From: Saccoglossus kowalevskii
Taxonomy: Eukaryota > Hemichordata > Enteropneusta > Harrimaniidae
Assembly: GCF_000003605.2 (NCBI RefSeq)
Contig: NW_003127663.1
Coordinates: 1-32,488 of the forward strand
Length of the DNA: 32,488 bases
Reading direction: 5' to 3'
The position numbers and the translations under genes were made by a program. Shown piece after piece: positions 5,997-27,177 of this stretch (positions are counted from its first letter, which is position 1; each line of letters starts with the position of its first letter). Below the pieces are notes generated by a model that was not told the origin of the DNA, did no database searches, and saw nothing but the letters and a program-made list of their open reading frames with translations.

Positions 5997-6082
5997 CGCC
6001 CCGCAATTGAGCGGGGTTATCAAAAAATTGATTATAGACTCATTAGTTGTTCCTCTGCACGGAAATCTTTAGTAAAAGGCGA
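5997..6082 (-). pseudogene. U5: U5 snRNA gene 3' part (nt 35-120), split by LINE B1
   Basis: This 86 bp runs from the first base of loop I through the Sm site (AAUUUUUUG) and the terminal hairpin. It ends at GTAAAAGGCGA on the + strand, directly abutting the LINE B1 3' end. Its missing 34-nt 5' part is found at 11446-11479; together they make exactly 120 nt. Confidence 0.93.
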
Positions 6083-6159
6083 TTTTTAGTTTGTAGGAAA
6101 AATCAATTTAACTTATCTTGAAACAGATGTGCAGAGGATCAAACATATACAAATGAACT

Positions 6160-6240
6160 GCAGGAGCCTCCTACTAGCAGGCTGGTCTCACCAGTTCTCG
6201 CCACAAGAGGGTACGATCCTCCCTACTGTAAAACTCCTGC
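6160..6240 (-). other. 3' UTR structured element of family B (B1)
   Basis: On the minus strand GCAGGAG at the start pairs with CTCCTGC at the end, enclosing an inner hairpin CTGGTGAGACCAG and the motif GGAGGATCG followed by CTTGTGGCGAGA. A similar order of motifs occurs in the family A 3' UTR (19848-19901), although the surrounding sequence differs. Reverse transcriptases of many LINEs bind a 3' UTR structure to prime at the target; that role is inferred here. Confidence 0.6.
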
Positions 6241-6351
6241 TGAAAATAAATATTTAGGGAACAAATGTGTTGTACTTGGAGGGATGTATCGAGAAAAGTT
6301 AACTCGAAAAGTTGAATAGATCAGGCATAGAATAGTGGTTGCAAGACAAAT

Positions 6352-9300
6352 TCATGACAAAATGGCGGCATACCCAGTCTGTGTTTTTTGGACGACAGGA
6401 TCCCATCTGAAGAAGAAATCTGGTCTTGCCAAACGGTGAAAATCAGTTTTCAAACGTGTTTTAATAGAGATCTTTACTTGTTGCAATAGTTGGTCCTGAG
6501 AAAGATGAATATTTTCAAATGCCGATTTGCATCGAGACTTCCAGATGTGCAATTTGACGATGTTAATCAAATAGAGTGCTGTACTCGATGGAAAGGATGA
6601 AGGTGACGCATCAGATATGCTATAGAAAATTAAGTTCAGATCACAAGGAGATATAATATTGAACCATTTAAAGAACAAATTATCCAGCCAAGACCACAAG
6701 AAAGCGGCAAGGTGGCAGGTGATGAACATGTGAATCATAGTTTCAGGGGAAGTACAGGTCGCACGTGGGCATTTGGAACATGAAACATATCCCCATTTGT
6801 GCATTACTGATGTTGTAACGACAGCACGGTGAACAATTTTCCAGGACAGACAGATCATATTGTTTTCCAGAATACACGAGTGCATACGATGCCAAATCAA
6901 AGGCCAGTCAAGGTTCGGGTTTTCTCCCACGACCTTTGGGTAGGTTACCGTATTTCTGGAGAGGTGATCGGACAATTCTCTAGTTGATGATGTCTTCCAG
7001 TTGATGCTTGGGCTTTTCCTCATGATCTGTTTAACCAATTCAGTTGTTGTTTTGTACCAAACTGGGCACGATTCAAAGTGAGGACTAGAATTAGACCAAA
7101 GGTGAGAAAGATAGTGTCTGAGTTCAGAGGCACAGTATGCTGTGAAATAAAGGTTGCAAGGTTTAGTCTGAAAAGAGATTTTTATGCTTTTCAGAAGAAG
7201 TGACATAGCTTTTGTGGGCAGATGTGATAGGCCCCAACCACCCTTTTCCTTCGGTAAGCAGATCACATCTCTTCGGACGTGTTCTTTGCGTCCTCCCCAA
7301 AAAAAACAAAGATATCGGCCATGATTGACTTCCTAATTGGAAGGGGGCAGGGGAAGAGAGGAGCAATATAGAAAAAGAGTGGCAAAGCAACAGAGTTCAG
7401 AAGAGTTGTCTTACCGGCATAAGTGAGATTTCTTGATTTCCAAGAATTGAGCACATGCTTCAGTTTGATTTGCCGATCATACCAATTCAAAGCAGACATA
7501 TCAGAATTTGAAATCCAGACACCGTTAACTTTTAGTTTATTGCTGTTAAAGGTGAATTGGCAAGGCGAGTGCCCGAGGCTTTAGAAAATCTATCAGACAA
7601 CATGATAAGGTGGTTGAGAGATGACAGGTCCGATAGTGAGGCTGTATTATCATCAGCATACTGCACGAGCTTACACTCATCAGTTGATCCAGGAAGGTAA
7701 AAGCCCTTGATCTTTTGGCAGTTCCTCACAGCGGCTGCAAATGGCTCGATGAACAGCACATAAAACAGGGGAGAAAGAGGGCATCCTTGGCGAACTCCTC
7801 TAGATAACATGATGGGGGGTGACAAATGACCATTAACCAGAACAGAGCTGGTGATACCATTATACAGACATGATATGAAGTGACTGAATTGGGGACCAAA
7901 ATTCATACGAAAAAGAACTTTGTGCAGAAAACTCCATTCCACCTGGTCAAAGGCTTTCTGTTGGTCCAATGAGATAAGCAGACCTGACATATTACGATCA
8001 TTAGCATGAAACACAATATCACGGATGATTTGAATGTTTTCTTGGATCGATCTTCCAGAGACACCACATGTTTGAAAGGGAGATAACAGACTAGAGATGA
8101 CAGGTTTCAGGCGGTTACAGAGAGATTTGGAGATCAGCTTGTAGTCCACATTCAAAAGCCATATAGGACGTTTGTTCTTTGGATCGAGGTGAGAGTTTTC
8201 ATTGCCAGGTTTGGTGACATCAATATCCTTATTGATAAGGGTGGTGACGCTTTTCTTTTGAGATGAAGAAAGATGACCGGAAGAAAGCTCTTCATTGATG
8301 ACGTCAGTCAGATCATATTTCAGAAAGTGCCAGCAATGAATATAAAATTCCTTTGGCAAACCATCCCTTCCGGGTGTTTTGTTGTTCTCCATGCCCCTAA
8401 GGGCATGTTCAATTTCAGAAGTTTTCAGAGGTGATTCCAAAGAATCACGCTGGCTACTTGAAAGACTGTGAGTCACCTGTGAAAGAAAAAAATCCTGATC
8501 TTCTTCGTCAAGTGATGATTTAGAAGTGAACAGAGATGCATAGAAGTTGTGAATTGTATTCAAAATATTTTTCTGAGAATGGTGAATGTCTTCATTCGTG
8601 TCTCTGATGGCAGAAATTACTTTCCTTTTTCCGCGACGGCGTTCACGACCAAGAAAATAACGAGAGCACTTCTCATTTTCATCAAGATTCTGAACCCGCG
8701 CACGGATTTTGGCGCCTTCGAGATTAGACATATTCAGGGAGTTGATTTGATCCCTTACAGAAGAATACTGCTCAAGGCTGGATTGGGACCGGTCCCCCTG
8801 ATTCAGCTTGGACGTCAGATGCTGAAGCTCATCATTAAGATATTTAAGTTTGACCTTTCTTGCATGAGATTTTTGACAAGCATATGAAATGAGACAAGAT
8901 TTACAACGGTCTTTAACCATATCCCATCATTCACTGATGTTATCAAAGGCCGGCTTCAGAGTCTTCCATCTTTCATAGTCGTCTTCGATGGATCTTATAA
9001 TCTCCGGATCCTGGAAGAGTGAGACGTTACATTTCCATACTCCAGGTCCCCGAGCAGGGGAATTAAAGGCTTTAAGCAGAATACATACAGCATCATGATC
9101 AGAAAGAGTGAAAGCAGAAATAGTCGCAGAAGATACATTCAGGGATGAAGATACATACAATCGGTCAATCCTAGATGAAACAGAGTTGTTCTTGTTGCGC
9201 CAGGTGAATTGTGATGTAGAAGGATGATGCTTTCGCCAAACATCCACAAGACTAAGTTCAGAGCAAAGATCACCCAACTCTAAGCCCCCTACATAGGAAT

Positions 9301-9778
9301 GGGAGCATGTTAGAGAACCTCCCAACTTGTCCATACTACTCTCAATACAATTAAAGTCCCCACCAAGAATCAGGGGGTAGTTACCTCCAAGAAATTGATG
9401 AAGCGAGTCAAGGAATTTTTTCCTCTGAGAAGGCATATTAGGAGCATACACAGAAATAACTTTAAACAGGTTTGTGTTCCACTTCACAACACTTGATACC
9501 ACTCTGCCACTATCATCAGAAACCGCGTTGTCAAATGAAACATTACATTTCGGTGAAAGGAGGATCCCCACACTTCTGCTGTTGTTCGAGCCGAGACTCC
9601 ATATCGCACTACCACCCCATTCTCTCTCCCACTGCTTTCCTTCCTCAAGAGAACAGACATGTGCCTCCTGGACAAGGATGATATCAAAGTTAGATTCATG
9701 ACAGTATTTGAAAAAAAGAGACCTTTTCATATAATCTTTTAAACCATTTATGTTTATTGAAATAATAGAGACAGACAT
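6352..9778 (-). pseudogene. Family B ORF2 (endonuclease-RT), broken copy B1
   Basis: The frame starts at ATG 9776-9778, 20 nt after the ORF1 stop. The N-terminal AP-like endonuclease shows NINGLKDY, QEAH, GGDFNC and LSDHD. The RT shows KTPGRDGLPKEFY, SLDQQKAFDQVEW, GVRQGCPLSPL and YADDN, and a C-terminal CPRATC..H..C knuckle lies near the end. Against copy B2 there are three lesions: a Trp to TGA stop at 8924-8926 (codon 284, just after the endonuclease), a 61 bp deletion at 7570/7571 just C-terminal of YADDN, and one base lost in the A-run near 7300. It encodes at best a free endonuclease domain of 283 aa. Confidence 0.92.
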
Positions 9779-9798
9779 ATTTTTGGTGAGAAGAACCT

Positions 9799-11253
9799 TT
9801 ATTTCGTAAAATAATCATCAAAATAGCTGGATTCTTTGTTCAGAACCCATTGTGGGTGGGCTTCGCAACAGTGGATGAGCCACTCGGATGGCGTGACAGA
9901 CACCGCTTCACATGCTTCGACAGGGCAGAGCAGTTGCACCGTGTCCAGAAAAGAGTGGTGAGCTTGGAGATGAGAAACCAGGGCAGGCCATCCAGTAAAT
10001 TCGCTATTGCAGTCCGCATCAGACACTCGGTGACATGTAACTTCCACCTGGTTCAGTTTGTGGAGGCGAGAATCTCTTGTCCTCGACAAGGCAGCCTTAG
10101 TTTCAGTATTCACATTCGGTGTGTTTAGACTTTGTTCGTCAGCACTGGTGAAGCTCTCGCAATCAGAAACAATAGTGACATCGTGTGAAAAGCCAGGGAC
10201 CCTAGTTCGTTTGTGATCTTCAGTGGAGGGAACATAGTCATCTTCTGCTGGGCGTTTTCCGCTAGCAAGATGGGGAAGAATAGGAGCTTCAGCCACCATA
10301 TCAGAAATGTCTTCGGGTTCACTACCAACAGTTTCAGATGGTGATACACTGGCGGGTGAAGAAGAGATGGCGCCTGGTCCAGAAGTAGTTTTCGCAGAAT
10401 CATGTTTAGAAATAGGCAAGATCGGAGGAGAATCGTAATTCATATCAGGTTGAACCGGACAGGCAGGTGAGATTACAGGGTCAGTGATATCAGCCGAATC
10501 AGCTGGAGAGGTATCATGGACAGGTTTGTCAGGAGCAGGATCAGATGGCCGGCTTGCTTGTGGTGCTGTGGACCACTTGTTCAGAACACTGGCTTTGTTC
10601 GCAAAAGAGACTTTACATTGGCGGAAGTTGTGCCCGTTTTCATGGCACACAGTACACTTTATGTCATTGGTACAGTTGTCAATAGAGTGGCCAACTCCAA
10701 GACAGCGAAAGCAAACAACTTCTTTGCATTCTTTAGCAAAGTGATCAACTCCGTGACAGCGGGCACAGATCTTAGGCTGACCGGGATAAGAAATCCAAAC
10801 ATTTCTATTACAGATGCGCAGACGGGGAGGAATATTTCGCCCCAATTTAACTTTATATTGACGAATTCCATTAAAGCAAGTAGGAAACTCAGAGTAGACG
10901 CATTTTCGTGCAGCAAGAACCTTTCCAAATCTGGATAAAGCATGTTGCATGTATGAGTCATCTAGATCATTGCCCACGTATGAGGCGGTGACGATAGTGG
11001 ATTCTTCATATGAAGATGAGGAACAGTCTGCTGAGGCAGCAATTTTCTCTTCAAAATTTCTTCTGAAGGGTAAGGAACGGAAGGTGACATCATATTTTGA
11101 CGGACCAAGCTTTTCAACAGCTTCCAAGTGAAGCTTCACATCAATGTCGAAGGATTTTAAATAATCAAACACCTGTTTAGGTGTTGCAGATTCAGATTTT
11201 AAAACCAAACAAAGAACTCTGTCTTTTCTGCCAATAGGCCGAATTCCAGCCAT
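9799..11253 (-). CDS. Family B ORF1, gag-like nucleic-acid-binding protein (B1)
   Basis: 484 aa from the ATG at 11251-11253 (MAGIRPIGRKDRVLC); the frame is open further upstream but without another ATG. The protein should coat LINE RNA in the ribonucleoprotein. The N-terminal 150 residues look RRM-like (YVGNDLDDSYMQHALSRFG). Three CCHC knuckles follow at about 163-176, 181-194 and 200-213, then a Pro/Ser/Asp-rich, probably disordered linker. The C-terminus has two C2H2-like fingers at about 407-433 and 443-466. The frame is intact although ORF2 of this copy is dead. Assignment as LINE gag is firm; the role of the C2H2 pair is unknown. Confidence 0.93.
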   Translation of the reverse strand: MAGIRPIGRKDRVLCLVLKSESATPKQVFDYLKSFDIDVKLHLEAVEKLGPSKYDVTFRSLPFRRNFEEKIAASADCSSSSYEESTIVTASYVGNDLDDSYMQHALSRFGKVLAARKCVYSEFPTCFNGIRQYKVKLGRNIPPRLRICNRNVWISYPGQPKICARCHGVDHFAKECKEVVCFRCLGVGHSIDNCTNDIKCTVCHENGHNFRQCKVSFANKASVLNKWSTAPQASRPSDPAPDKPVHDTSPADSADITDPVISPACPVQPDMNYDSPPILPISKHDSAKTTSGPGAISSSPASVSPSETVGSEPEDISDMVAEAPILPHLASGKRPAEDDYVPSTEDHKRTRVPGFSHDVTIVSDCESFTSADEQSLNTPNVNTETKAALSRTRDSRLHKLNQVEVTCHRVSDADCNSEFTGWPALVSHLQAHHSFLDTVQLLCPVEACEAVSVTPSEWLIHCCEAHPQWVLNKESSYFDDYFTK

Positions 11254-11291
11254 GGCAACAGAGAGACAAAACAAAAAAGATGAAAACAGCA

Positions 11292-11306
11292 CGAGGCGAA
11301 GCCTCG
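11292..11306 (-). other. 5' UTR hairpin upstream of ORF1 (B1)
   Basis: A perfect 6 bp stem CGAGGC/GCCTCG with a 3 nt loop lies 39-53 nt before the ORF1 ATG. In B2 the loop base differs but the stem is preserved. It could affect initiation at ORF1; this is an inference from position alone. Confidence 0.45.
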
Positions 11307-11445
11307 AGCAAGACAAGTCCAATAACCAGCAAGCAAACTGAAGGCAGCAGCACACGTGAGAGGACAGCAGCGAATCAGAAAATATCAAACGATGATCAAA
11401 GCAAGAAGAGAATTACTTACAGGATCCAGTGACTTGGTAACAGCG

Positions 11446-11479
11446 AAGATTTATGCGGTCTGCAGAAAAACCAGAGTTA
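11446..11479 (-). pseudogene. U5: U5 snRNA gene 5' part (nt 1-34), split by LINE B1
   Basis: The first 34 nt of U5 end at AAATCTT and join directly to the LINE B1 5' end. The upstream promoter region, including the PSE-like element at 11525-11543, is intact, so transcription starting here would enter the LINE. The complementary 3' part is at 5997-6082. Confidence 0.92.
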
Positions 11480-12325: not shown

Positions 12326-12411
12326 CACCCCGCAATTGAGCGGGGTTATCAAAAAATTGATTATAGACTCATTAGTTGTTCCTCTGCACGGAAATCTTTA
12401 GTAAAAGGCGA
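12326..12411 (-). pseudogene. U5: U5 snRNA gene 3' part (nt 35-120), split by LINE B2
   Basis: 86 bp from loop I through an Sm site and terminal hairpin, with a G-to-A change just outside the hairpin (CACCCC on the + strand). It abuts the 3' end of LINE B2; its 5' part is at 17838-17871 and the two again sum to 120 nt. Confidence 0.92.
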
Positions 12412-12488
12412 TTTTTAGTTTGTAGGAAAAATCAATTTAACTTATCTTGAAACAGATGTGCAGAGGATCAAACATATACAAATGAACT

Positions 12489-12569
12489 GCAGGAGCCTCC
12501 TACTAGCAGGCTGGTCTCACCAGTTCTCGCCACAAGAGGGTACGATCCTCCCTACTGTAAAACTCCTGC
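12489..12569 (-). other. 3' UTR structured element of family B (B2)
   Basis: Same sequence and pairing as the element at 6160-6240: outer stem GCAGGAG/CTCCTGC with an inner CTGG/CCAG hairpin. It starts about 77 nt from the LINE 3' terminus. Confidence 0.6.
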
Positions 12570-12680
12570 TGAAAATAAATATTTAGGGAACAAATGTGTT
12601 GTACTTGGAGGGATGTATCGAGAAAAGTTAACTCGAAAAGTTGAATAGATCAGGCATAGAATAGTGGTTACAAGACAAAT

Positions 12681-15600
12681 TCATGACAAAATGGCGGCAT
12701 ACCCAGTCTGTGTTTTTTGGACGACAGGACCCCATCTGAAGAAGAAATCTGGTCTTGCCAAACGGTGAAAATCAGTTTTCAAACGTGTTTTAATGGAGAT
12801 CTTTACTTGTTGCAATAGTTGGTCCTGAGAAAGATGAATATTTTCAAATGCCGATTTGCATCGAGACTTCCAGATGTGCAATTTGACGATGTTAATCAAA
12901 TAGAGTGCTGTACTCGATGGAAAGGATGAAGGTGACGCATCAGATATGCTATAGAAAATTAAGTTCAGATCACAAGGAGATATAATATTGAACCATTTAA
13001 AGAACAAATTATCCAGCCAAGACCACAAGAAAGCGGCAAGGTGGCAGGTGATGAACATGTGAATCATAGTTTCAGGGGAAGTACAGGTCGCACGTGGGCA
13101 TTTGGAACATGAAACATATCCCCATTTGTGCATTACTGATGTTGTAACGACAGCACGGTGAACAATTTTCCAGGACAGACAGATCATATTGTTTTCCAGA
13201 ATACACGAGTGCATACGATGCCAAATCAAAGGCCAGTCAAGGTTCGGGTTTTCTCCCACGACCTTTGGGTAGGTTACCGTATTTCTGGAGAGGTGATCGG
13301 ACAATTCTCTAGTTGATGATGTCTCCCAGTTGATGCTTGGGCTTTTCCTCATGATCTGTTTAACCAATTCAGTTGTTGTTTTGTACCAAACTGGGCACGA
13401 TTCAAAGTGAGGACTAGAATTAGACCAAAGGTGAGGAAGATAGCGTCTGAGTTCAGAGGCACAGTATGCTGTGAAATAAAGGTTGCAAGGTTTAGTCTGA
13501 AAAGAGATTTTTATGCTTTTCAGAAGAAGTGACATAGCTTTTGTGGGCAGATGTGATAGGCCCCAACCACCCTTTTCCTTCGGTAAGCAGATCACATCTC
13601 TTCGGACGTGTTCTTTGCGTCCTCCCCAAAAAAACCCAAAGATATCGGCCATGATTGACTTCCTAATTGGAAGGGGGCAGGGGAAGAGAGGAGCAATATA
13701 GAAAAAGAGTGGCAAAGCAACAGAGTTCAGAAGAGTTGTCTTACCGGCATAAGTGAGATTTCTTGATTTCCAAGAATTGAGCATGTGCTTCAGTTTGATT
13801 TGCCGATCATACCAATTCAAAGCAGACATATCAGAATTTGAAATCCAGACACCGTTAACTTTTAGTTTATTGCTGTTAAAGGTGAATTGGCAAGGCGAGT
13901 CGCTACGGTGCTTCCACCTGCCAAGCCACAGACCTTTGCACTTAGATTTATTCAGACAAGAGCCCGAGGCTTTAGAAAATCTATCAGACAACATGATAAG
14001 GTGGTTGAGAGATGACAGGTTCGATAGTGAGGCTGTATTATCATCAGCATACTGCACGAGCTTACACTCATCAGTTGATCCAGGAAGGTAAAAGCCCTTG
14101 ATCTTTTGGCAGTTCCTCACAGCGGCTGCAAATGGCTCGATGAATAGCACATAAAGCAGGGGAGAAAGAGGGCATCCTTGGCGAACTCCTCTAGATAACA
14201 TGATGGGGGGTGACAAATGACCATTAACCAGAACAGAGCTGGTGATACCATTATACAGACATGATATGAAGTGACTGAATTGGGGACCAAAATTCATACG
14301 AAAAAGAACTTTGTGCAGAAAACTCCATTCCACCTGGTCAAAGGCTTTCTGTTGGTCCAATGAGATAAGCAGACCTGACATATTACGATCATTAGCATGA
14401 AACACAATATCACGGATGATCTGAATGTTTTCTTGGATCGATCTTCCAGTGACACCACATGTTTGAAAGGGAGATAACAGACTAGAGATGACAGGTTTCA
14501 GGCGGTTACAGAGAGATTTGGAGATCAGCTTGTAGTCCACATTCAAAAGCGATATAGGACGTTTGTTCTTTGGATCGAGGTGAGAGTTTTCATTGCCAGG
14601 TTTGGTGACATCGATATCCTTACTGATAAGGGTGATGACGCCTTTCTTTTGGGATGAAGAAAGATGACCGGAAGAAAGCTCTTCATTGATGACGTCAGTC
14701 AGATCATATTTCAGAAAGTGCCAGCAATGAATATAAAATTCCTTTGGCAAACCATCCCTTCCGGGTGTTTTGTTGTTCTCCATGCCCCTAAGGGCATGTT
14801 CAATTTCAGAAGTTTTCAGAGGTGATTCCAAAGAATCACGCTGGCTACTTGAAAGACTGTGAGTCACCTGTGAAAGAAAAAAAATCCTGATCTTCTTCGT
14901 CAAGTGATGATTTAGAAGTGAACAGAGATGCATAGAAGTTGTGAATTGTATTCAAAATATTTTTCTGAGAATTGTGAATGTCTCCATTCGTGTCTCTGAT
15001 GGCAGAAATTACTTTCATTTTTCCGCGACGGCGTTCACGACCAAGAAAATAACGAGAGCACTTCTCATTTTCATCAAGATTCTGAACCCGTGCACGGATT
15101 TTGGCGCCTTCGAGATTAGACATATTCAGGGAGTTTATTTGATCCCTTACAGAAGAATACTGCTCAAGGCTGGATTGGGACCTGTCCCCCTGATTCAGCT
15201 TGGACGTCAGATGCTGAAGCTCATCATTAAGATATTTAAGTTTGACCTTTCTTGCATGAGATTTTTGACAAGCATATGAAATGAGACAAGATTTACAACG
15301 GTCTTTAACCATATCCCACCATTCACTGATGTTATCAAAGGCTGGCTTCAGAGTCTTCCATCTTTCATAGTTGTCTTCGATGGATCTTATAATCTCTGGA
15401 TCCTGGAGGAGTGAGACGTTACATTTCCATACTCCAGGTCCCCGAGCAGGGGAATTAAAGGCTTTAAGCAGAATACATACAGCATCATGATCAGAAAGAG
15501 TGAAAGCAGAAATAGTCGCAGAAGATACATTCAGGGATGAAGATACATAAAATCGGTCAATCCTAGATGAAACAGAGTTGTGCTTGTTGCGCCAGGTGAA

Positions 15601-16170
15601 TTGTGATGCAGAAGGATGATGCTTTCGCCAAACATCCACAAGACTAAGTTCAGAGCAAAGATCTCCCAACTCTAAGCCCCCTACATAAGAATGGGAGCAT
15701 GTTAGAGAACCTCCCAACTTGTCCATACTACTCTCAATACAATTAAAGTCCCCACCAAGAATCAGGGGGTAGTTACCTCCAAGAAATTGATGAAGCGAGT
15801 CAAGGAATTTTTTCCTCTGAGAAGGCATATTAGGAGCATACACAGAAATAACTTTAAAAAGGTTTGTGTTCCACTTCACAACACTTGACACCACTCTGCC
15901 ACTATCATCAGAAACCGCGTTGTCAAATGAAACATTACATTTCGGTGAAAGGAGGATTCCCACACCTCTGCTGTTGTTCGAGCCGAGACTCCATATCGCA
16001 CTACCACCCCATTCTCTCTCCCACTGCTTTCCTTCCTCAAGAGAACAGACATGTGCCTCCTGGACAAGGATGATATCAAAGTTAGATTCATGACAGTATT
16101 TGAAAAAAAGAGACCTTTTCATATAATCTTTTAAACCATTTATGTTTATTGAAATAATAGAGACAGACAT
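12681..16170 (-). pseudogene. Family B ORF2 (endonuclease-RT), one frameshift (B2)
   Basis: ORF2 starts at ATG 16168-16170. Residues 1-235 form the AP-like endonuclease (NINGLKDY near 9-16, QEAH with E38, GGDFNC with D141, SDHD at 226-229). A run of eight A at 14877-14884, against seven in B1, shifts the frame at about codon 429, before the first RT block. The rest is open to 12681 and holds KTPGRDGLPKEFY, SLDQQKAFDQVEW, GVRQGCPLSPL, YADDN, and a C-terminal CPRATC..H..C knuckle. The two open segments, 14845-16170 and 12681-14933, overlap. A homopolymer error in the assembly would explain the break equally well. Confidence 0.9.
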
Positions 16171-16190
16171 ATTTTTGGTGAGAAGAACCT

Positions 16191-17645: not shown

Positions 17646-17683
17646 GGCAACAGAGAGACAAAACAAAAAAGATGAAAACAGCA

Positions 17684-17698
17684 CGAGGCAAAGCCTCG
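17684..17698 (-). other. 5' UTR hairpin upstream of ORF1 (B2)
   Basis: Same 6 bp stem CGAGGC/GCCTCG as in B1, 39-53 nt before the ORF1 ATG. The only difference falls in the loop, so pairing is unaffected. Confidence 0.45.
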
Positions 17699-17837
17699 AG
17701 CAAGACAAGTCCAATAACCAGCAAGCAAACTGAAGGCAGCAGCACACGTGAGAGGACAGCAGCGAATCAGAAAATATCAAACGATGATCAAAGCAAGAAG
17801 AGAATTACTTACAGGATCCAGTGACTTGGTAACAGCG

Positions 17838-17871
17838 AAGATTTATGCGGTCTGCAGAAAAACCAGAGTTA
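17838..17871 (-). pseudogene. U5: U5 snRNA gene 5' part (nt 1-34), split by LINE B2
   Basis: First 34 nt of U5 fused to the LINE B2 5' end, with the PSE-like element at 17917-17935 upstream. The 3' part is at 12326-12411. Confidence 0.92.
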
Positions 17872-18717
17872 ATTCGACATATGGTTGTGGTGTAATACAT
17901 ACGTTTCAGTGACCACAACTTCGGATAAGGTGAGTAAAGTGGGAAAACAAATATCTTCCGATTTTGTGTACTATGTGTAATTTCTTACAGAAACTTAGGT
18001 GGTTTGTTATTGAAGGCTAGACAAATAATTATGTTATACAAAATACATTATGAGACACGCTGCCTTGAATATGAGAAATACATAATTTGCCCCTGCTTTC
18101 TGACCAATAAACGTTTAAGTCGCGCTCTATAGCGACGATACTGTAACAATGTTGTTCAAAGCGAAAACCGTCTCGTCATTTCGGATATTATAATTAATCT
18201 TAGATTTCTTTACGGCATAATTTCCAGTATGATTGTAACATTGTTTTAGCATATAGCACTTCAAAGTTTAGCTGCCAGTCAGTACAAACTGTTGCTAGTC
18301 AACAATGTAATTAATAGTTTACCTTCATGATTTTTTTAATAACTTGCCCTTTCAGTCGACAGCTACTTCAACATATCCCTGTATCCGCTGGTAGAGGGCG
18401 CAACTCGTGCGAATTTGATGAGCTATCAAACCAAGGTGTAAATTTCTACAGAAGGTCAGTGCCCGGCCACAAAGATCCGCCAATTGGGAGTAATCTGTGA
18501 AATAAAAATGAAAACAAAAAACAAAAAACGGCGATGTTCAATTTTGCCCAAGCTTACCCGGGCCTGATTAGACAGTCATGAAACCTGCCCGTCAGTTGTA
18601 AACCCGCCCGATAGACCCTAGCCATCGTCGAAATTTGGATACTGAAAGATTTGGTCATCTGAATATCCTACATATTCAAGTTGCCGATTCAATTATTTCT
18701 AATATTTGTTTATTTAT
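17872..18717 (-). repeat. U5 intergenic spacer, variant type (second copy)
   Basis: Almost identical to 11480-12325, with the full set of variant-type diagnostic bases. One visible difference is ATATCCTAC near 18664 instead of ATATCGTAC. No gene is seen. Confidence 0.85.
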
Positions 18718-18837
18718 CACCCCGCAATTGAGCGGGGTTATCAAAAAATTGACTATAGACTCATTAGTTGTTCCTCTGCACGGAAATCTTTAGTAAAAGG
18801 CGAAAGATTTATGCGGTCTGCAGAAAAACCAGAGTTA
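18718..18837 (-). ncRNA. U5: U5 snRNA gene, complete (copy 7)
   Basis: Uninterrupted 120 nt copy between LINEs B2 and A2. Loop I, its stem, an Sm site (AAUUUUUUG) and the terminal hairpin are all present. It carries the variant GCGGTCTGCAG and CACCCC bases shared with the B-flanking copies, plus a unique T-to-C in GACTATAGAC. PSE-like element at 18883-18901. Confidence 0.93.
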
Positions 18838-19687: not shown

Positions 19688-19773
19688 CGCCCCGCAATTG
19701 AGCGGGGTTATCAAAAATTTGATTATAGACTCATTAGTTGTTCCTCTGCACGGAAATCTTTAGTAAAAGGCGA
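19688..19773 (-). pseudogene. U5: U5 snRNA gene 3' part (nt 35-120), split by LINE A2
   Basis: 86 bp from loop I to the terminal hairpin, identical in layout to the other split copies, abutting the 3' end of family A copy A2. The 5' part at 25221-25252 is 32 nt long, so 2 nt were lost at this insertion. Confidence 0.92.
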
Positions 19774-19792
19774 TTTTTGATTTAGGAGGTTA

Positions 19793-19808
19793 AATCAATC
19801 AATCAATC
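19793..19808 (-). repeat. GATT microsatellite at the A2 3' end
   Basis: Four copies of AATC on the + strand (GATT on the element's sense strand) lie about 20 nt from the 3' terminus of the LINE. It may be a slippage product of reverse transcription. Family B has no such run. Confidence 0.8.
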
Positions 19809-19847
19809 ATTCATCAAGAAGACGAAATGAGATTACAGGCCCCTCCT

Positions 19848-19901
19848 AGGCAGGCCAGCCTTGCTGGATCTCACCACATAAGACTTCGAGTCCTCCTGCC
19901 T
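19848..19901 (-). other. 3' UTR structured element of family A (A2)
   Basis: On the minus strand AGGCAGG at the start pairs with CCTGCCT at the end. Inside are GGAGGACTCG, then CTTATGTGGTGAGA, then a hairpin CCAGC/GCTGG. The order GGAGGA-TCG, CTT-TGTGG-GAGA, CCAG hairpin matches the family B element. It is a candidate recognition structure for the reverse transcriptase. Confidence 0.6.
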
Positions 19902-20022
19902 GATGTTATGTAGCCTGAATGTCTATGGAAAAGTCCAAAAGCAACAGAAACAGAGATGTGTAACTTTGAATTGATTGCGATAATCGATGAACCGTAGTGA
20001 TGCTGAGCTCGGGCCATTATGA

Positions 20023-23000
20023 TTAAGTTTGAGAACTGGGTTGATTGGTCAGGTGGAGTGGTTGCCACAGGGAGACGTATTTCGCTCTGGAGAAACGCAG
20101 TTGATCAGTCTGGAGTCGTCTTTTGATGTCTTCATTGATGTTCAAAATGGCTGATTCAGATGACAAGTGGATGTTTTCAAAGGCGGCTTTACATCTGGTC
20201 TTCCAAATATGGAGTTTAACTAGGTTAATGATGTAAAGGGCGGAGTTGTTGGGAAATGACGTGTGCACGGGGTCAGCTAAGCTGTAGATGATGAGGTTGG
20301 ATGTACAGACGTTTAAGAGACCAAAGTGACGAAAAATGAAGCTTTCCACCCAAGACCATAGGGAAGCCGAAAAATCGCAAGAAATAAACATGTGATGTAT
20401 TGTCTCTGGCATAGTACAAGAGAGACGAGGACACATTTGACTGGTGGCGTATCCCCATCTATGCATCATAATGGTGGTGGTAAGTGCATTATGGATTATT
20501 CTCCAAGACAGGTCCCTCATGTTCATGTCCAGAAGAGGGGCATGAACTCTGTGCCAAATAGTGTTCCAGTCGAGACAGCCCTTCAACTCCATCACACGTG
20601 GGTATATAGAAGCTTGATTCAGGAGTAAGCCATATAACTCTTTCGTGGTGGCTTTATTGCAAATAATGTTGTTGTCCATTCTATTTACTGTACGAGCAAG
20701 GGTGATGATAGAAGCATACCAGGGAGGTTCTGGTGGGAAGTGTGGGCCAATGTTTGACCACATGTTCGGCAGAAGACACCTGAGATCTGAGGCACAGTAT
20801 GCCTTGGTGAAATAGCAGCAGGGACGATCATGGAAGCATGAGAAAACAGTTTTCAACAGCAGAGCATTTGCCATGCTGTGGAGATGTACGAGGCCCCAAC
20901 CCCCCTTCGTCATAGGCAGGTGAATAACATCGCGGCGGACCTTTTCCTTTCTTCCTCCCCAAAAGAAGCGGAATATATCAACTTGAATCTGTTTTAAGAT
21001 TGGGGTTGGGCAGGGGAAGATGGGAGCGATATAATAAAACAAGGGGATGGCAAGAGAGTTGAGAATGGTGGTTTTGCCAGCTAAGGTGAGACGTCTAGAT
21101 CTCCAGGACGTGAGCATATTTCTCAGCTTGTTGTGTCTAATGGACCAGTTTTCTGATGGCATGTCCTCGTTTGAGATCCAAACCCCATTGACTTTAAGTC
21201 TCTTGTTATTGAAAGATATGCCACTTGGAGAGTCCACTCTGTGTTTCCAGCTTCCAGCCCACATGCCTTTGGTCTTTTGCTTATTCAGTCGGGATCCGGA
21301 TGCTAAACCAAAACGCTCACTGATGGACATCAGAGCTTCCAAGGACTCTGAGCTGGTAATAATGGCAGTGTTGTCATCGGCGTACTGGAAGAGTTTGGAT
21401 GGTGAGGGAGCTCCTGGCAGGTTAAACCCTTGGATGCACGGGGATTGCCTAACTGCAGCAGCAAAGGGTTCAATGTAAAGGGTGTACAGCAGTGGTGAAA
21501 TGGGGCAGCCCTGCCGCACACCTCTTGAAAGGGGAAAGGCTTTTGAGAGGAACCCATTAACCAGAACTGAGCTGTGGATGTCATTATAGAAGGTCTGAAT
21601 GGTTTGGATGAACGAGGGGCCAAAATTCATTCTCTGCAGAACCTTTACAAGGAAGGGCCACTCAACACGGTCGAAAGCCTTTTGCTGGTCTAGCGATACC
21701 AGAGCACAGGGAAAGTTGCGTTCATTGGCAAGGTAGACAATGTCTCGAATAACCTGGACGTTCTCCTGGATGGACCTCCCAGGGACTCCACACGTTTGGT
21801 ATGGAGACAGCAGGTGAGAGGTAACAGATTTTAAACGGTTGCAGAAGGATTTGGAGATGAGCTTGTAATCGGTGTTGAGTAGGGAAATTGGCCGTTTGTT
21901 TTGTGGGCTCAAGTGGGCATTTTCGTTAGCTGGAGTGGAGGAATCACCGGGTTTGTTCAACAGGATGATGGTACCATGGCGCTGGGAGGACGAGAGTTTC
22001 CCAAGCTCAAGTTCTTGATTGAGTACTTCAGTGAGGTCTTCCCCTATAAAACGCCAACATGCAGAATAAAATTCCTTAGGTAATCCATCACTTCCGGGGG
22101 TTTTGTGGTTTTGCATGCAGCGAAGTGACTGTTGAACCTCTGCAGAGGTGAGAGGCCCCTCCAGAGTAGATTGCTGATTAGGTGAGAGTTTGTTAGAAAT
22201 TTTAGATAGGAAGAACTCCTGTTCCGTGGTGTTGAGACAAGGTTCAGCCGTGTACAGCGTTTGGTAAAAGTCGATGAGGGTTTCAGAGATTTTATCCTGA
22301 GAATGGTGAATAGTACCATGTTTATTCAAGATGGCAGTGATGAGTTTCTCCTTTCCTCTGCGATGTTCCCGGCTGAAGAAGTATCTGGAGCATTTCTCAT
22401 CCATATCCAGTTTTTGCACACGGGCCCGGATCTTGACTCCCTGCAAGCGCTTGGCTTTAAGCTTATTAATTTTGTTTTTAATTTCGTGGTAGTTGTCTAG
22501 GGTTGGCTTGGAGCGATCTCCCTGATTCAGTTTTGATGTATAGAGCACAAGCTGTTGATGGAGCGATTCCAACGCTGCCTTGTGGGCTTTTGCCTTGCGA
22601 TGAGAATGGGACTTCAGAAGAAGCTGCATACGATGTTTTATCATATCCCACCAATCTGCCATGGTGTTGAAAGCTGGTTGCAGTGTCTTCCACTTGTTAT
22701 AATGCTCTTCTAGGTCTTTAGTAATTTTAGGGTCCTGGAAAAGAGACGTGTTACACTTCCAAACTCCTGGGCCACGATGTGGGGAGGAGAAAGGAGAAAT
22801 AGAGAGTTTCATAAACTCATGATCAGATAGCGAACAAGGAGAAATGCTAGTTTCAGTGTTTAAGCAGATGGAGACGTAAAATCTGTCAAGCCGGGAGGCA
22901 GTGGTGTTATTAGCATCCCGCCAGGTAAACTCCTGAGCAGTAGGGTGGTCTTTGCGCCAAGAATCGACCATGGAGAAATCACTGACCAGTTGGCAAAGTT

Positions 23001-23526
23001 GCCTACTACCGACAAAGGAGTGACGACTGGAAAGTGAACCACCACATTTGTCATTGGTGGACTCGATGCAGTTAAAGTCTCCTCCAAGTACAATTGGGAA
23101 GCCGCTGCCACAGAATTCATGAAGTGAGTTGAAAAAATCAGACCTACGCCCAGGGACATTAGGCCCATAAATGTTGACCAGAGTTAAAGGTGACCCGCTG
23201 ACTTTAACTGTACAGGCGATTACTCTACCATCGCCGTCTTTCATGATGTTAGTTGGAGAAATGCCAGAGTTTGGCGAAAACAAAATCCCAACACCCTTGC
23301 TGTTGTTAGCGCCGATACTCCAAATGGCCTCGCCTCCCCACTCGCACGTCCACTGTTGTTCTTCTGCAAGAGTGCTGACATGAGCTTCCTGGATGAAAAC
23401 AATGTTGTAGTTGTTACGGCAGTCTGAAAAAAGCTGAGCACGTTTATTGTACTCTTTTAAACCATTAGTATTGATGGTGAGTATGGACAGAGAAGCCATA
23501 ATAAGGGGTAGGGTGGTGTGAAGCAT
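20023..23526 (-). CDS. Family A ORF2, endonuclease-reverse transcriptase (A2)
   Basis: 1167 aa from ATG 23524-23526; a second ATG nine codons on (MASLSIL, 23499) aligns better with family B ORF2 and may be the true start. The AP-like endonuclease spans about 12-245 (NGLKEY at 21-26, QEAH with E47, GGDFNC with D150 and N152, SDHE at 234-237). A basic linker follows. The RT spans about 475-790 (KTPGSDGLPKEFY, D613 in SLDQQKAFD, GVRQGCPISPLLY, YADD at 715-718). A C-terminal knuckle has C1032, C1037, H1044/1045 and C1050. It nicks the target and copies LINE RNA there. Residue 20 is Thr where A3 has Ile, next to the first endonuclease motif; it is not the metal-binding Asn. Confidence 0.95.
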   Translation of the reverse strand: MLHTTLPLIMASLSILTINTNGLKEYNKRAQLFSDCRNNYNIVFIQEAHVSTLAEEQQWTCEWGGEAIWSIGANNSKGVGILFSPNSGISPTNIMKDGDGRVIACTVKVSGSPLTLVNIYGPNVPGRRSDFFNSLHEFCGSGFPIVLGGDFNCIESTNDKCGGSLSSRHSFVGSRQLCQLVSDFSMVDSWRKDHPTAQEFTWRDANNTTASRLDRFYVSICLNTETSISPCSLSDHEFMKLSISPFSSPHRGPGVWKCNTSLFQDPKITKDLEEHYNKWKTLQPAFNTMADWWDMIKHRMQLLLKSHSHRKAKAHKAALESLHQQLVLYTSKLNQGDRSKPTLDNYHEIKNKINKLKAKRLQGVKIRARVQKLDMDEKCSRYFFSREHRRGKEKLITAILNKHGTIHHSQDKISETLIDFYQTLYTAEPCLNTTEQEFFLSKISNKLSPNQQSTLEGPLTSAEVQQSLRCMQNHKTPGSDGLPKEFYSACWRFIGEDLTEVLNQELELGKLSSSQRHGTIILLNKPGDSSTPANENAHLSPQNKRPISLLNTDYKLISKSFCNRLKSVTSHLLSPYQTCGVPGRSIQENVQVIRDIVYLANERNFPCALVSLDQQKAFDRVEWPFLVKVLQRMNFGPSFIQTIQTFYNDIHSSVLVNGFLSKAFPLSRGVRQGCPISPLLYTLYIEPFAAAVRQSPCIQGFNLPGAPSPSKLFQYADDNTAIITSSESLEALMSISERFGLASGSRLNKQKTKGMWAGSWKHRVDSPSGISFNNKRLKVNGVWISNEDMPSENWSIRHNKLRNMLTSWRSRRLTLAGKTTILNSLAIPLFYYIAPIFPCPTPILKQIQVDIFRFFWGGRKEKVRRDVIHLPMTKGGWGLVHLHSMANALLLKTVFSCFHDRPCCYFTKAYCASDLRCLLPNMWSNIGPHFPPEPPWYASIITLARTVNRMDNNIICNKATTKELYGLLLNQASIYPRVMELKGCLDWNTIWHRVHAPLLDMNMRDLSWRIIHNALTTTIMMHRWGYATSQMCPRLSCTMPETIHHMFISCDFSASLWSWVESFIFRHFGLLNVCTSNLIIYSLADPVHTSFPNNSALYIINLVKLHIWKTRCKAAFENIHLSSESAILNINEDIKRRLQTDQLRFSRAKYVSLWQPLHLTNQPSSQT

Positions 23527-23532
23527 GACGAG

Positions 23533-24912
23533 TTAGGTGATGTAATAATAGTCAAAGAAGGATGAGTCCTTGGCCAGAACAAACTCAGGATGGCAGTTGC
23601 AGCAGTGGGAAAGCCATTCTGAGGTGTTGATAGAAGTGGCTTTGCATTGTTTTACAGGGCACAAAAGATGGATGGTATCAAAGAAGTTGTGGGAGGTTTG
23701 TAGGTGGTTTACCACGTCAGCCCAACCTGTGAGAATTTTCCGGCAGTCTGTGCTAGATATTGAGCAGCATCTGACATCAACTTCGGAAAGCTTGTGCAGT
23801 GGGGAGTCACGACATTTTGATAGAGTGTTACGAACACGTCTGGAAAGGAGGGGTTCTTCTTTTCCACTATCCACTGATTCTTGGTCTGAAGAGGCGCAGA
23901 ACTCATCGTCTTCGGGCGCTTTCGGTCTCTTGTTGTCTTCATTGGTGGGATCTTCGTTTGAAGCGGGACGCTTCTCTCCTTTATTGGTCTCTGCTGTGGT
24001 GGGTAGAGGATCTTTGGTAGTGGAGACTTGGCTGTTCATATCCAGGGTTCTTGGTAGGTTCTTTGCAGGGTCCAGAGATGTGGAGTGGGGGTCGGTGAGA
24101 TGTTCGTTTGTTGGTTCCTCCCTGTGCATTGTAGCTGCTTGGGGCTCAGAAGGAGGATCGTGGGGTGTGGTTGCACTCGAGGGCTCAGGTGGGGGAATAG
24201 GATCTGAGGCTGGTGGATTGGTAGGGGTCCAAGTTTTACCTAGGTTGACTCTGCCGGCGAAAGAAATTGGACAGTTGCGGTAATTGTGTCCACCTTTATG
24301 ACAGACAGTGCAAGTGATGGGATTTGTGCAGCTGTCAACTGAGTGGCCCATTTCGAGGCACCTGTAACAAATAACTTCTTTACAGTCTTTGGCAAAATGA
24401 CCATTCTTATTGCACCGTGCGCAAATCTTCGGTTGACCAAGGTATGAGAACCAGATGTTACGATTACATACACGAAGGCGTGGTGGGATATTATGACGTA
24501 GTCTGATCTTGTACTGTCGCAGACCGTTGAAACATGAAGGGTGGTCTGCGTACACACATTTTCTCGCTGCAACAACTTCTCCAAAAGCATTTAAAGCGTG
24601 GCGAACAAATGAATCGTCTAAATCATTCCCCACAAAGGAGGCAGTAACAATCACAAATTCTTCATAAGAAGACACACAAACTTGCGTATCCAAGCCCTTT
24701 AGCTTAGTAAAGAACTCACGCCTGAGAGAGATAGACCGAAAGGTCACATCATACTTTGAGGCAGATAGTTTTTCAACTGCCTCCAGATGTGGCTCGACGA
24801 CAACGTCACCAGAAGCTAAAAATGAGAATACCTCTTTGGGAGGGACACTTTCGCTCTGGAAGGAAAGGCAGAGAACTCTGTCCTTTCTTGCCATTGATGG
24901 AGCTCCAGTCAT
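23533..24912 (-). CDS. Family A ORF1, gag-like nucleic-acid-binding protein (A2)
   Basis: 459 aa from ATG 24910-24912 (MTGAPSMARKDRVLC); the frame extends upstream only through a TTG. RRM-like segments occupy roughly the first 150 residues (FVGNDLDDSFVRHALNAFG). Three CCHC knuckles lie near 164-177, 182-195 and 201-214. A Pro/Thr/Glu-rich linker with short basic KRPA and KRPKA stretches follows. Two C2H2-like fingers lie near 383-408 and 418-441. Six nt separate its TAA from the ORF2 ATG, which suits termination-reinitiation. The protein is homologous to family B ORF1 throughout. Confidence 0.94.
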   Translation of the reverse strand: MTGAPSMARKDRVLCLSFQSESVPPKEVFSFLASGDVVVEPHLEAVEKLSASKYDVTFRSISLRREFFTKLKGLDTQVCVSSYEEFVIVTASFVGNDLDDSFVRHALNAFGEVVAARKCVYADHPSCFNGLRQYKIRLRHNIPPRLRVCNRNIWFSYLGQPKICARCNKNGHFAKDCKEVICYRCLEMGHSVDSCTNPITCTVCHKGGHNYRNCPISFAGRVNLGKTWTPTNPPASDPIPPPEPSSATTPHDPPSEPQAATMHREEPTNEHLTDPHSTSLDPAKNLPRTLDMNSQVSTTKDPLPTTAETNKGEKRPASNEDPTNEDNKRPKAPEDDEFCASSDQESVDSGKEEPLLSRRVRNTLSKCRDSPLHKLSEVDVRCCSISSTDCRKILTGWADVVNHLQTSHNFFDTIHLLCPVKQCKATSINTSEWLSHCCNCHPEFVLAKDSSFFDYYYIT

Positions 24913-24968
24913 GGCAGCCAAACGTAGTGAGAAAGAAACAGGAATGGAGAAGAGGGGAGGGCCCCTCA

Positions 24969-24994
24969 GCCCAATAGTCTATTTGACTATGGGC
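24969..24994 (-). other. 5' UTR hairpin upstream of ORF1 (A2)
   Basis: GCCC-A-ATAGTC pairs with GACTAT-GGGC around a 5 nt loop, giving a 10 bp stem with one bulged base, 57-82 nt before the ORF1 ATG. The same structure is present in A3. Family B has an unrelated hairpin at a similar position. Confidence 0.45.
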
Positions 24995-25075
24995 AGAGGA
25001 ACAGCAGACGCCAAAAGGAGAGCAAACACAGAGCAAAAAAAAGCAGGGAAAAGCTAACGAACCAAACAGCAATCA

Positions 25076-25220
25076 GGACACAGCACTCAACACAGGTGAC
25101 CTTGAATTGAAGAACAGCTTCAGCGTCCGGTTGTGACTTGTACAATTAGGCTGCAAACACGGATTACACCACTCGGTACAGGTAAACCTGAAGTGAAGAA
25201 TAGCTCCGGCATCCAACGAC
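25076..25220 (-). repeat. Diverged direct repeat in the family A 5' UTR
   Basis: Two copies of about 60 bp, at 25076-25137 and 25161-25220, share the order GGACGC/GGATGCC, AGCTGTTCTTCA/AGCTATTCTTCA, TTCAAGGTCACCTGT/TTCAGGTTTACCTGT, GAGTGCTGTGTCC/GAGTGGTGTAATCC on the minus strand, about 84 bp apart. They lie right at the element's 5' end, next to the U5 stub. Repeated 5' UTR monomers carry promoter activity in some other LINEs; here that is only a possibility. Confidence 0.65.
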
Positions 25221-25252
25221 GATTAATGCGGTCTGCAGAAAAACCAGAGTTA
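25221..25252 (-). pseudogene. U5: U5 snRNA gene 5' part, split by LINE A2
   Basis: The first 32 nt of U5, ending in CATTAATC where intact copies read CATAAATC, are fused to the LINE 5' end. Two nt of the target are missing compared with B1 and B2. The PSE-like element at 25298-25316 is intact. The 3' part is at 19688-19773. Confidence 0.88.
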
Positions 25253-26102
25253 ATTCGACATATGGTTGTGGTGTAATACATACGTTTCAGTGACCACAAC
25301 TTCGGATAAGGTGAGTAAAGTGGGAAAACAAATATCTTTCGATTTTGTGTACTATGTGTAATTTCTTACAGAAACTTAGGTGGTTTGTTATTAAAGGCTA
25401 GACAAATAATTATGTTATACAAAATACATTATGAGGAACGCTGCCTTGAATATGAGAAATACATAATTTGCCCCTGCTTTCTGACCAATAAACGTTTAAG
25501 TCGCGCTCTATAGCGACGATACTGTAACAATGTTGTTCAAAGTGAAAACCGTCTCGTCATTTCGGATATTATAATTAATCTTAGATTTCTTTTCGGCATA
25601 ATGTCCAGTATGATTGTAACATTGTTTTAGCATATAGCACTTCTAAGTTTAGCTGCCAGTCAGTACAAACTGTTGATAGTCAACAATGTAATTAATAGTT
25701 TACCTTCATGATTTTTTTAATAACTTGCCCTTTCAGTCGACAGCTACTTCAACATATCCCTGTATCCGCTGGTAGAGGGCGCAACTCGTGCGAATTTGAT
25801 GAGCTATCAAACCAAAGTGTAAATTTCTACAGAAGGTCAGTGCCCGGCCACAAAGATCCGCCAATTGGAAGTAATCTGTGAAATAAAAATGAAAAAAACA
25901 AACAAACAAAAAACGGCGATGTTGAATTTTGCCCAAGCATACCCGGGCCTGATTAGACAGTCATGAAACCTGCCCGTCTGTTGTAAACCCGCCCGATAGA
26001 GCCTGGCCATCGTCGAAATTTGGATACTGAAAGATTTGGTCATCTGAATATCGTACATATTCAGGTTGCCGATTCAATTATTTCTAATATTTGTTTATTT
26101 AT
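25253..26102 (-). repeat. U5 intergenic spacer, standard type
   Basis: Matches the standard-type spacers at 2237-5996 (CTTTCGATT, ATTAAAGGC, GAGGAACGCTG, GTTGATAGTC), with a private CTTCTAAG near 25641. No gene is seen. Confidence 0.85.
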
Positions 26103-26222
26103 CGCCCCGCAATTGAGCGGGGTTATCAAAAATTTGATTATAGACTCATCAGTTGTTCCTCTGCACGGAAATCTTTAGTAAAAGGCGAAAGATTTATGCG
26201 GCCTGCAGAAAAACCAGAGTTA
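26103..26222 (-). ncRNA. U5: U5 snRNA gene, complete (copy 9)
   Basis: Complete 120 nt copy between LINEs A2 and A3 with intact loop I, stem, Sm site AAUUUUUG and terminal hairpin. One substitution (ACTCATCAG on the + strand instead of ACTCATTAG) falls in the segment between stem I and the Sm site. PSE-like element at 26268-26286. Confidence 0.94.
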
Positions 26223-27072
26223 ATTCGACATATGGTTGTGGTGTAATACATACGTTTCAGTGACCACAACTTCGGATAAGGTGAGTAAAGTGGGAAAACA
26301 AATATCTTTCGATTTTGTGTACTATGTGTAATTTCTTACAGAAACTTAGGTGGTTTGTTATTAAAGGCTAGACAAATAATTATGTTATACAAAATACATT
26401 ATGAGGAACGCTGCCTTGAATATGAGAAATACATAATTTGCCCCTGCTTTCCGACCAATAAACGTTTAAGTCGCGCTCTATAGCGACGATACTGTAACAA
26501 TGTTGTTCAAAGTGAAAACCGTCTCGTCATTTCGGATATTATAATTAATCTTAGATTTCTTTTCGGCATAATGTCCAGTATGATTGTAACATTGTTTTAG
26601 CATATAGCACTTCAAAGTTTAGCTGCCAGTCAGTACAAACTGTTGATAGTCAACAATGTAATTAATAGTTTACCTTCATGATTTTTTTAATAACTTGCCC
26701 TTTCAGTCGACAGCTACTTCAACATATCCCTGTATCCGCTGGTAGAGGGCGCAACTCGTGCGAATTTGATGAGCTATCAAACCAAAGTGTAAATTTCTAC
26801 AGAAGGTCAGTGCCCGGCCACAAAGATCCGCCAATTGGAAGTAATCTGTGAAATAAAAATGAAAAAAACAAACAAACAAAAAACGGCGATGTTGAATTTT
26901 GCCCAAGCATACCCGGGCCTGATTAGACAGTCATGAAACCTGCCCGTCTGTTGTAAACCCGCCCGATAGAGCCTGGCCATCGTCGAAATTTGGATACTGA
27001 AAGATTTGGTCATCTGAATATCGTACATATTCAGGTTGCCGATTCAATTATTTCTAATATTTGTTTATTTAT
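26223..27072 (-). repeat. U5 intergenic spacer, standard type (last)
   Basis: Standard-type spacer; a private change is CTTTCCGACC near 26447. It has the same PSE-like element, inverted repeats and AAAC run as the others. No gene is seen. Confidence 0.85.
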
Positions 27073-27158
27073 CGCCCCGCAATTGAGCGGGGTTATCAAA
27101 AATTTGATTATAGACTCATTAGTTGTTCCTCTGCACGGAAATCTTTAGTAAAAGGCGA
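27073..27158 (-). pseudogene. U5: U5 snRNA gene 3' part (nt 35-120), split by LINE A3
   Basis: 86 bp from loop I to the terminal hairpin, abutting the 3' end of family A copy A3 at the same base as all other insertions. Its 5' part lies beyond the right window edge. Confidence 0.92.
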
Positions 27159-27177
27159 TTTTTGATTTAGGAGGTTA

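Follow-up and report, generated by a model that had tools for sequence, protein, structure and literature searches.

R1, R2, SART and other site-specific long interspersed nuclear elements (LINEs) occupy a fixed site in a multicopy target and have a precise 3' end. The elements considered here are two LINE families, A and B, which interrupt a tandem repeat of U5 small nuclear RNA (snRNA) genes in a window of 32,488 bp that makes up an entire contig (C2012; NW_003127663.1) of the 572-Mb assembly of the hemichordate Saccoglossus kowalevskii. They share with R1, R2 and SART the single site in a multicopy target and the precise 3' end, but their target is U5 rather than ribosomal DNA or telomeric repeats. 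Families A and B are very probably autonomous, site-specific non-long-terminal-repeat (non-LTR) retrotransposons of the L1 type, combining an APE endonuclease with a reverse transcriptase (RT), that target the U5 snRNA gene, a judgement that takes in the insertion mechanism set out below.

Keno, Mutsu, Dewa and Tx1L are members of the Tx1 clade. Tx1L makes a target site duplication of ~23 bp, which is a feature of that element and is not known to define the clade, and some members of the R1 clade lack an RNase H domain. Human LINE-1 (L1) is not known to be confined to one gene. As of 2015, the only elements reported to be specific for snRNA genes were Keno and Utopia, both in U2, together with Dada-U1 and Dada-U6 (PMC4640811). 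That source also names Tx1 and R1 as the APE-type target-specific clades and reports an RNase H domain downstream of the RT for the R1 clade; site-specific insertion of SART1 is described in PMC7265360.

Likened by description only, Keno resembles A and B as an APE-type LINE at a fixed site in a spliceosomal snRNA gene, but its target is U2 as opposed to U5 or, for a third family (C) introduced below, U1; its 3' flank is the same as that of Utopia, beginning at U2 nucleotide (nt) 39 (PMC4640811). Utopia, of the NeSL clade, also has a fixed 3' junction in an snRNA gene and several families co-resident in one array, and its arthropod families, like the full-length A and B copies, make no target duplication. 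Utopia differs in clade, in its U2 target and in its restriction-like endonuclease, in place of which A and B have an N-terminal APE domain. Dada-U1 and Dada-U6 are likewise described as inserting strictly into snRNA genes, but they are DDE DNA transposons with 6-bp target duplications, not retrotransposons.

A first-pass annotation, made from the letters of the window alone, had named no described U5-specific LINE. The literature search, whose scope excluded Repbase and subscription journals, found neither a U5-specific nor a U1-specific LINE; PMC4640811 gives LINEs in U2 only, and the term 'U5 snRNA' has no occurrence in PMC3706591 or PMC8869645. The elements most likely represent a previously undescribed lineage of U5- and U1-specific LINEs, as judged from literature other than Repbase.

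Element 3' ends in the U5 gene

The minus strand of the window, on which all window features given below lie, carries a tandem repeat with a unit of ~970 bp, the first ~120 bp of which is a U5 snRNA gene. Ten matches to Rfam family RF00020 occur in the window, the highest at 100.9 bits against a cut-off of 40. Five are intact U5 genes scoring 92-101 bits, at 3086..3205 (96.8 bits), 4056..4175 (94.3 bits), 5027..5146 (92.1 bits), 18719..18837 (100.9 bits) and 26103..26222 (95.4 bits), so that the unit does score as U5, as the first-pass annotation had supposed. The weakest four matches (40.6-46.2 bits) are 3' halves of U5 sitting behind element 3' ends. The 32-nt loop-I core occurs six times in the window without mismatch, and was found in none of 100 shuffles with up to three mismatches allowed. 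The ~970-bp repeat also fills C191, a contig of 44.7 kb, and C3795, one of 41.9 kb.

At every 3' junction in the window, an element end reading ...AAAAA abuts T35 of U5 (TCGCCTTTTACTAAAG) in the orientation of the U5 gene. The junctions of the four copies that reach this base, A1 (6082..6083; ...CTAAAAA/TCGCC), A2 (12411..12412), B1 (19773..19774; ...ATCAAAAA/TCGCC) and B2 (27158..27159), all fall between U5 nt 34 and 35. In the Rfam structure line, the 11-nt terminal loop (loop I) begins with T35, and the loop-I target is nearly identical to the Rfam consensus, base for base. The first-pass annotation had reported four independent junctions at this base, at the 5' edge of loop I and always in U5 orientation. 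Their position and orientation are exact to the base, but calling them independent was too strong from the window alone, since they represent two copies each of two families.

The assembly was searched with the last ~310-330 bp of each family, a search that scores best candidates only and therefore yields lower bounds. It returned seven A and five full B matches on the three array contigs and two short B matches (47 and 49 bp) on C1645, a contig of 850 kb. Mapping of the three array contigs also gave seven full 3' ends of family A and five of family B. The prospect that most genomic copies might lie outside U5 did not materialize, as all 12 full 3' ends found end in AAAAA and join U5 between nt 34 and 35 in the U5 sense. 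The 20-mer starting at U5 nt 35 has 55 exact copies in the assembly and its reversed control none. Of the 53 copies on the three array contigs, 41 follow a U5 5' half and 12 follow an element end. One of the remaining two is in an intact U5 gene on C4724 and the other is on C1645 behind an A-like end, which brings the readable 3' junctions at nt 34/35 to 13 of 13. The gene on C4724 (136378-136496) is a lone, unlinked U5 gene that is free of insertions, has the same loop-I core and an A at nt 21, and at 105.7 bits has the highest U5 score among those listed for the genome.

Multicopy arrays tolerate insertions, and an element precedes 12 of the 53 exact loop-I 20-mers on the arrays, so random LINEs might be imagined to have survived where disruption is tolerated, the U5 array not having been chosen. 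A refuge of this kind gives no account of why base, orientation and position are constant in a 970-bp unit that is mostly spacer. Mapping of the units for families A and B showed that these elements enter spacer nowhere but at the 5' joins of truncated copies, and the 13 of 13 readable 3' junctions at one base contradict the idea, which we consider extremely improbable.

At the C1645 locus (~785.5-793.9 kb), several degenerate pieces resembling A or B alternate with U5 spacer remnants; the pieces are ~67-90% identical to A or B where they can be aligned. The two short B matches are part of a degenerate B-like copy near spacer remnants, the 3' end of which has been lost. About 3 kb from that copy, the A-like 3' end (...CCTACAAACTAAAAA/TCGCC) meets U5 at nt 35, and this end reads as a separate, old insertion at the same U5 base outside the arrays. 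Three observations weigh against this interpretation of the locus. The A-likeness of the end lies in its last 19 bases only (E 0.001), the 106 bases that precede them having no significant match to A or B; the 3' ends of the other relic elements there are lost or unread; and an Rfam scan of ~6 kb at the locus found no U5. The locus also bears on whether unrelated repeats were joined to U5 during assembly. Tandem repeats are hard to assemble, and C3795 contains a head-to-head B/A join, but identical junctions occur on three contigs and a fourth, diverged one lies inside an 850-kb contig, which leaves an assembly artefact with hardly any probability.

Element proteins and relatives in U1 genes

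Both ends are present in copies A1 (6083..11445, 5363 bp), A2 (12412..17837, 5426 bp) and B1 (19774..25218, 5445 bp), and the 5' side of B2 (27159..32488) runs off the contig end. Open reading frames (ORFs) 1 and 2 are open in both B copies, whereas ORF2 is broken in A1, which has an internal deletion of ~60 bp, and is frame-broken in A2. Measured from stop to stop, ORF1 encodes 481 amino acids in B1 (23533..24978), 476 in B2 (30918..32348) and 537 in both A1 (9799..11412) and A2 (16191..17804), and ORF2 encodes 1169 in both B1 (20023..23532) and B2 (27408..30917). The B1 ORF2 product contains an APE endonuclease, an RT and, at its C terminus, a zf-RVT motif; in A2, these are divided between an APE piece (14845..16206) and an RT plus zf-RVT piece (12681..14951). 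In Pfam terms, B1 has Exo_endo_phos, RVT_1, zf-RVT and CCHC matches, and Exo_endo_phos and RVT_1 are also found in the separate A2 pieces. ORF1 and ORF2 of family B (20023-24978 in B1, 27408-32348 in B2) share a frame with one TAA between them, and translation of ORF2 may need reinitiation or readthrough.

The best match of B1 ORF2 among solved structures (PDB) is human LINE-1 ORF2p (E 3.6e-77, residues 14-905), which has the same APE and RT architecture; human L1 differs from A and B, however, in that they were found only in U5. R2 proteins match B1 ORF2 far more weakly (E 8e-18), and R2 has a restriction-like endonuclease without the APE domain of A and B. The RNase H domain of the R1 clade was not found in a Pfam scan of B1 ORF2 (E 0.001). 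CCHC zinc knuckles score above the Pfam cut-off in ORF1 of B1 and of family C; the CCHC match in A1 ORF1 falls under it (13.8 vs 20.8 bits), but the CCHC columns show no variation when A, B and C are aligned. That alignment contains three invariant CCHC sets and two C-terminal C2H2-like pairs, the latter seen by eye (in B1 among others) without Pfam support, and human LINE-1 differs in this respect. These zinc motifs are candidates for binding of the target DNA. The two ends of the elements, read directly, differ from each other, although no dedicated search for LTRs was made. With their predicted APE and RT domains, ORF1 zinc knuckles and A-rich 3' ends, A and B are LINEs of the L1 type. The two families are well separated, as their ORF2 pieces are 46-60% identical and their DNA can be aligned only in parts, at 64-69% identity in the longer pieces.

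Apart from the C1645 relic, the nearest relatives beyond U5 belong to family C, on contigs C876 and C3935, with 41% and 45% identity to B ORF2; across the aligned pieces, protein identity among A, B and C is 41-60%. Both contigs carry tandem U1 repeats of ~790 bp, with at least 42 U1 genes across C876, C3935 and one on C3461. On C3935, the element ends ...CTAAAACAAAAAT/AGGCGG, at U1 nt 37. The assembly contains this junction pattern at two places, one on C876 and one on C3935, which are also where the full 3' end of the family matches, so that family C joins U1 nt 37 in 2 of 2 cases. The sole family C 5' end seen comes from a different copy and joins U1 nt 32 (C876:9250/9251); the 3' side of that copy is cut off and joined to U1 spacer. 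The two joins together suggest a loss of U1 nt 33-36, and nt 32 and 37 both belong to the terminal loop of stem-loop I in U1. U1 is thus apparently a second new snRNA target.

The other 23 of the 25 matches in the search with the family C 3' region cover just a 50-75 bp stretch (query 144-230), which occurs at 23 other places with 76-84% identity and is perhaps a shared 3' structure or a short interspersed nuclear element. A stretch resembling this segment was seen by eye upstream of the relic 3' end on C1645. Seven more distant relatives in the genome have 29-34% identity; no Rfam match was found in 901 bp on C918 or in the 125 bp to the end of C1922, stretches of distant relatives that may not include the element ends. 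Seven U2 matches were found in the genome, and none is on a contig carrying A, B or C.

Two snRNA targets raise the question of what the endonuclease recognizes. Rather than the U5 sequence itself, it could be a hairpin or cruciform at the loop of an snRNA stem-loop, or else a chromatin feature near the promoter. The U2 structure places the U2 site outside a terminal loop, which speaks against a hairpin, but the U5 sites are at the 5' edge of loop I, the U1 sites are in the loop of stem-loop I, and the two target sequences are unlike by eye. All of the sites also lie ~32-39 nt from the RNA start (U5 34/35, U1 32/37 and the published U2 39; PMC4640811), such that U5 nt 35, U1 nt 37 and the U2 nt 39 of Keno and Utopia are nearly equidistant from it. 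Nevertheless, U5 was the only place where full 3' ends of A and B were found, and U1 the only one for those of C, so sequence must contribute, and recognition of shape or position in its place is rather unlikely, though it is the least improbable of the alternatives weighed here. Possibly, on the grounds of their predicted endonuclease and their specificity, A, B and C are site-specific LINEs of the Tx1 kind; an APE endonuclease combined with site specificity, as in the 13 of 13 junctions, is found in that clade too.

As a separate observation on this assembly, the mitochondrial contig C4830, in which cox1 and nad1 were read with mitochondrial code 5, has AGA at Ser-like and AAA at conserved Lys positions, as judged by eye, which would suit a bilaterian invertebrate that is not an echinoderm.

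Independence of the copies and their 5' ends

Copies within a family differ by 0.4-1.9%, and the distribution of these differences over the ORFs was compared with neutral simulations after exclusion of stop-containing codons, broken frames being compared piecewise. Segregating sites in B ORF2 comprise 37 synonymous and 49 non-synonymous ones, where 24.9 synonymous sites were expected and 5 of 2000 simulations reached 37. The synonymous count was reached in 67 of 2000 simulations for B ORF1 (18 synonymous, 27 non-synonymous), in 0 of 2000 for A ORF1 (30 and 32) and in 8 of 2000 for A ORF2 (36 and 47). A synonymous excess is therefore present in all four ORF sets, with pairwise pN/pS values of 0.28-0.51. 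Such an excess is not expected of purely passive duplication, which indicates that much of the divergence arose in lineages with functional proteins. By this sequence comparison, selection has acted on the ORFs, and the copies are not merely passive duplicates.

These data bear most directly on the idea that a single chance insertion per family into a U5 gene was multiplied by unequal crossing over and gene conversion, with the shared site reflecting common descent. The array is concerted, with copies ~98-99.6% identical, and identical 5' ends recur. The ~60-bp deletion within ORF2 of A1 is shared with an A copy on another contig, which, together with the sequence exchange within the arrays, indicates that some copies are passive or moved in trans. 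Copies in a homogenizing array are not fully independent. The analysis also covers one host genome only, assembly of its arrays may be incomplete, and the counts from the searches are minimum values. All of this detracts from the reading of A and B as site-specific elements. Passive amplification does not, however, explain why two clearly different families use the same base, why an old end at the separate C1645 locus does so as well, why synonymous changes are in excess between copies, or why both ORFs remain open in B1 and B2. Nor does it account for the lack of any A or B 3'-end match elsewhere in the 572 Mb apart from the degenerate C1645 copy, or for the two full 3' ends of the related family C at one U1 position. 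It is accordingly considered improbable. The unit haplotypes downstream of the five B 3' ends are five different ones; the stronger evidence for independence is the DNA divergence between A and B, the diverged C1645 locus and the synonymous excess between copies.

All six full-length A copies join U5 nt 34 directly, with 0 bp duplicated and 0 bp lost, as in the 5' flanks of A1 (U5 nt 1-34 at 11446..11479) and A2 (17838..17871), both with A at nt 21. The four full-length B copies have GT in place of U5 nt 33-34, again without duplication (B1, U5 nt 1-32 followed by GT, 25219..25252); the GT may mean that two bases were lost or that nt 33 alone differs, and two of the four copies have a T at nt 28 in common. 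The absence of a duplication distinguishes the full-length A and B copies from Tx1L with its ~23 bp.

Three copies that lack their 5' end join unit positions 81, 328 and 447, with overlaps of 7-10 bp between unit and element at the joins. The one in the window is a B copy (1..2155, from B position ~1328) that is joined to U5 nt 81 (U5 nt 1-81 at 2156..2236, G at nt 21) and whose 3' side would lie beyond the start of the contig. On C191, the truncated A copy lies between nt 1-447 and nt 35-969 of the U5 unit, a conceivable duplication of 413 bp. Of the three copies, only one shows truncation behind a conserved 3' end (at nt 35), one running off its contig and one ending in an inverted join; the flanks on C191 have one difference over nt 35-447, an uninformative comparison because most units of the common haplotype differ by just 0-3 anyway. 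The copy with the inverted join, on C3795, meets a B copy lacking its 3' end. Here (C3795:12840-19863) a B element stands head to head with an A fragment in inverted orientation, and the U5 units on the two sides run in opposite orientations, in what is either a palindromic array or an assembly join.

The 5' halves of U5 that precede full-length insertions carry A at nt 21 in 10 of 10 cases, compared to 9 of 39 intact units following mapped spacer (Fisher 1.1e-5) and none of the three truncated-copy flanks. Behind the common upstream spacer haplotype, A21 is present at 4 of 4 insertions and in 1 of 29 intact units (1.2e-4). The p-values should be taken as no more than indicative, since the copies are not independent of one another. 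The pattern suggests that transcripts from the U5 promoter carry U5 nt 1-34 as a leader travelling with the element, and the simplest reading is that nt 1-34 moves as the leader of a transcript begun at that promoter. Against this, one ancestral A21-bearing insertion per family, followed by exchange of spacers, could have left the same pattern. An ACTCACC block 61-64 bp upstream of the start of the array U5 genes, the C4724 U5 gene and U1 has the position expected of an snRNA promoter element.

A proposed insertion mechanism and its implications

From what is known of LINE biology, the nick made by the ORF2 endonuclease would fall on the antisense strand, opposite U5 nt 35. From the 3' end at this nick, the RT would prime on element RNA, which terminates in a short run of A. 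The resulting copy, in the U5 sense, would sit behind the U5 promoter region with 34 nt of U5 ahead of it, and the promoter would then produce a chimeric RNA of U5 nt 1-34 followed by the element. The 34-nt leader would be reverse transcribed along with the element and would pair with the matching stretch upstream of the nick, giving a clean 5' junction without target duplication. Where reverse transcription stops early, microhomology may allow the complementary DNA to be joined at another place in the array. Family C would follow the same course in U1 genes. Use of the U5 promoter, with the RNA starting at U5 +1, and placement of the 5' end by the 34-nt leader are less certain than the nick and the priming.

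A broader proposal, to which we assign even chances, is that A, B and C form an L1/Tx1-type lineage dedicated to spliceosomal snRNA genes, whose target would have changed between U5 and U1, and perhaps to U2 by way of Keno. Its members would enter ~32-38 nt behind the RNA start and act as parasites of snRNA promoters, their chimeric snRNA-LINE transcripts having the first ~34 nt of the snRNA as a leader that guides the 5' end of a new copy to the cognate gene. The closeness of the U5 families to the U1 family makes target switching testable, and the 5' leader pattern offers a concrete test of how precise 5' junctions are formed by LINEs that possibly lack a promoter of their own.

In the literature searched, U2 is the only snRNA gene with specific LINEs, and U5 and U1 would be new LINE targets. 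Many and varied eukaryotes probably possess the near-consensus loop-I target. The element would on that account be a candidate for long-term persistence or for horizontal transfer, and the endonuclease and RT of A and B would be candidate parts of a tool for insertion at a conserved multicopy site. In S. kowalevskii, genes of the splicing machinery itself would serve as the landing site of a parasite.

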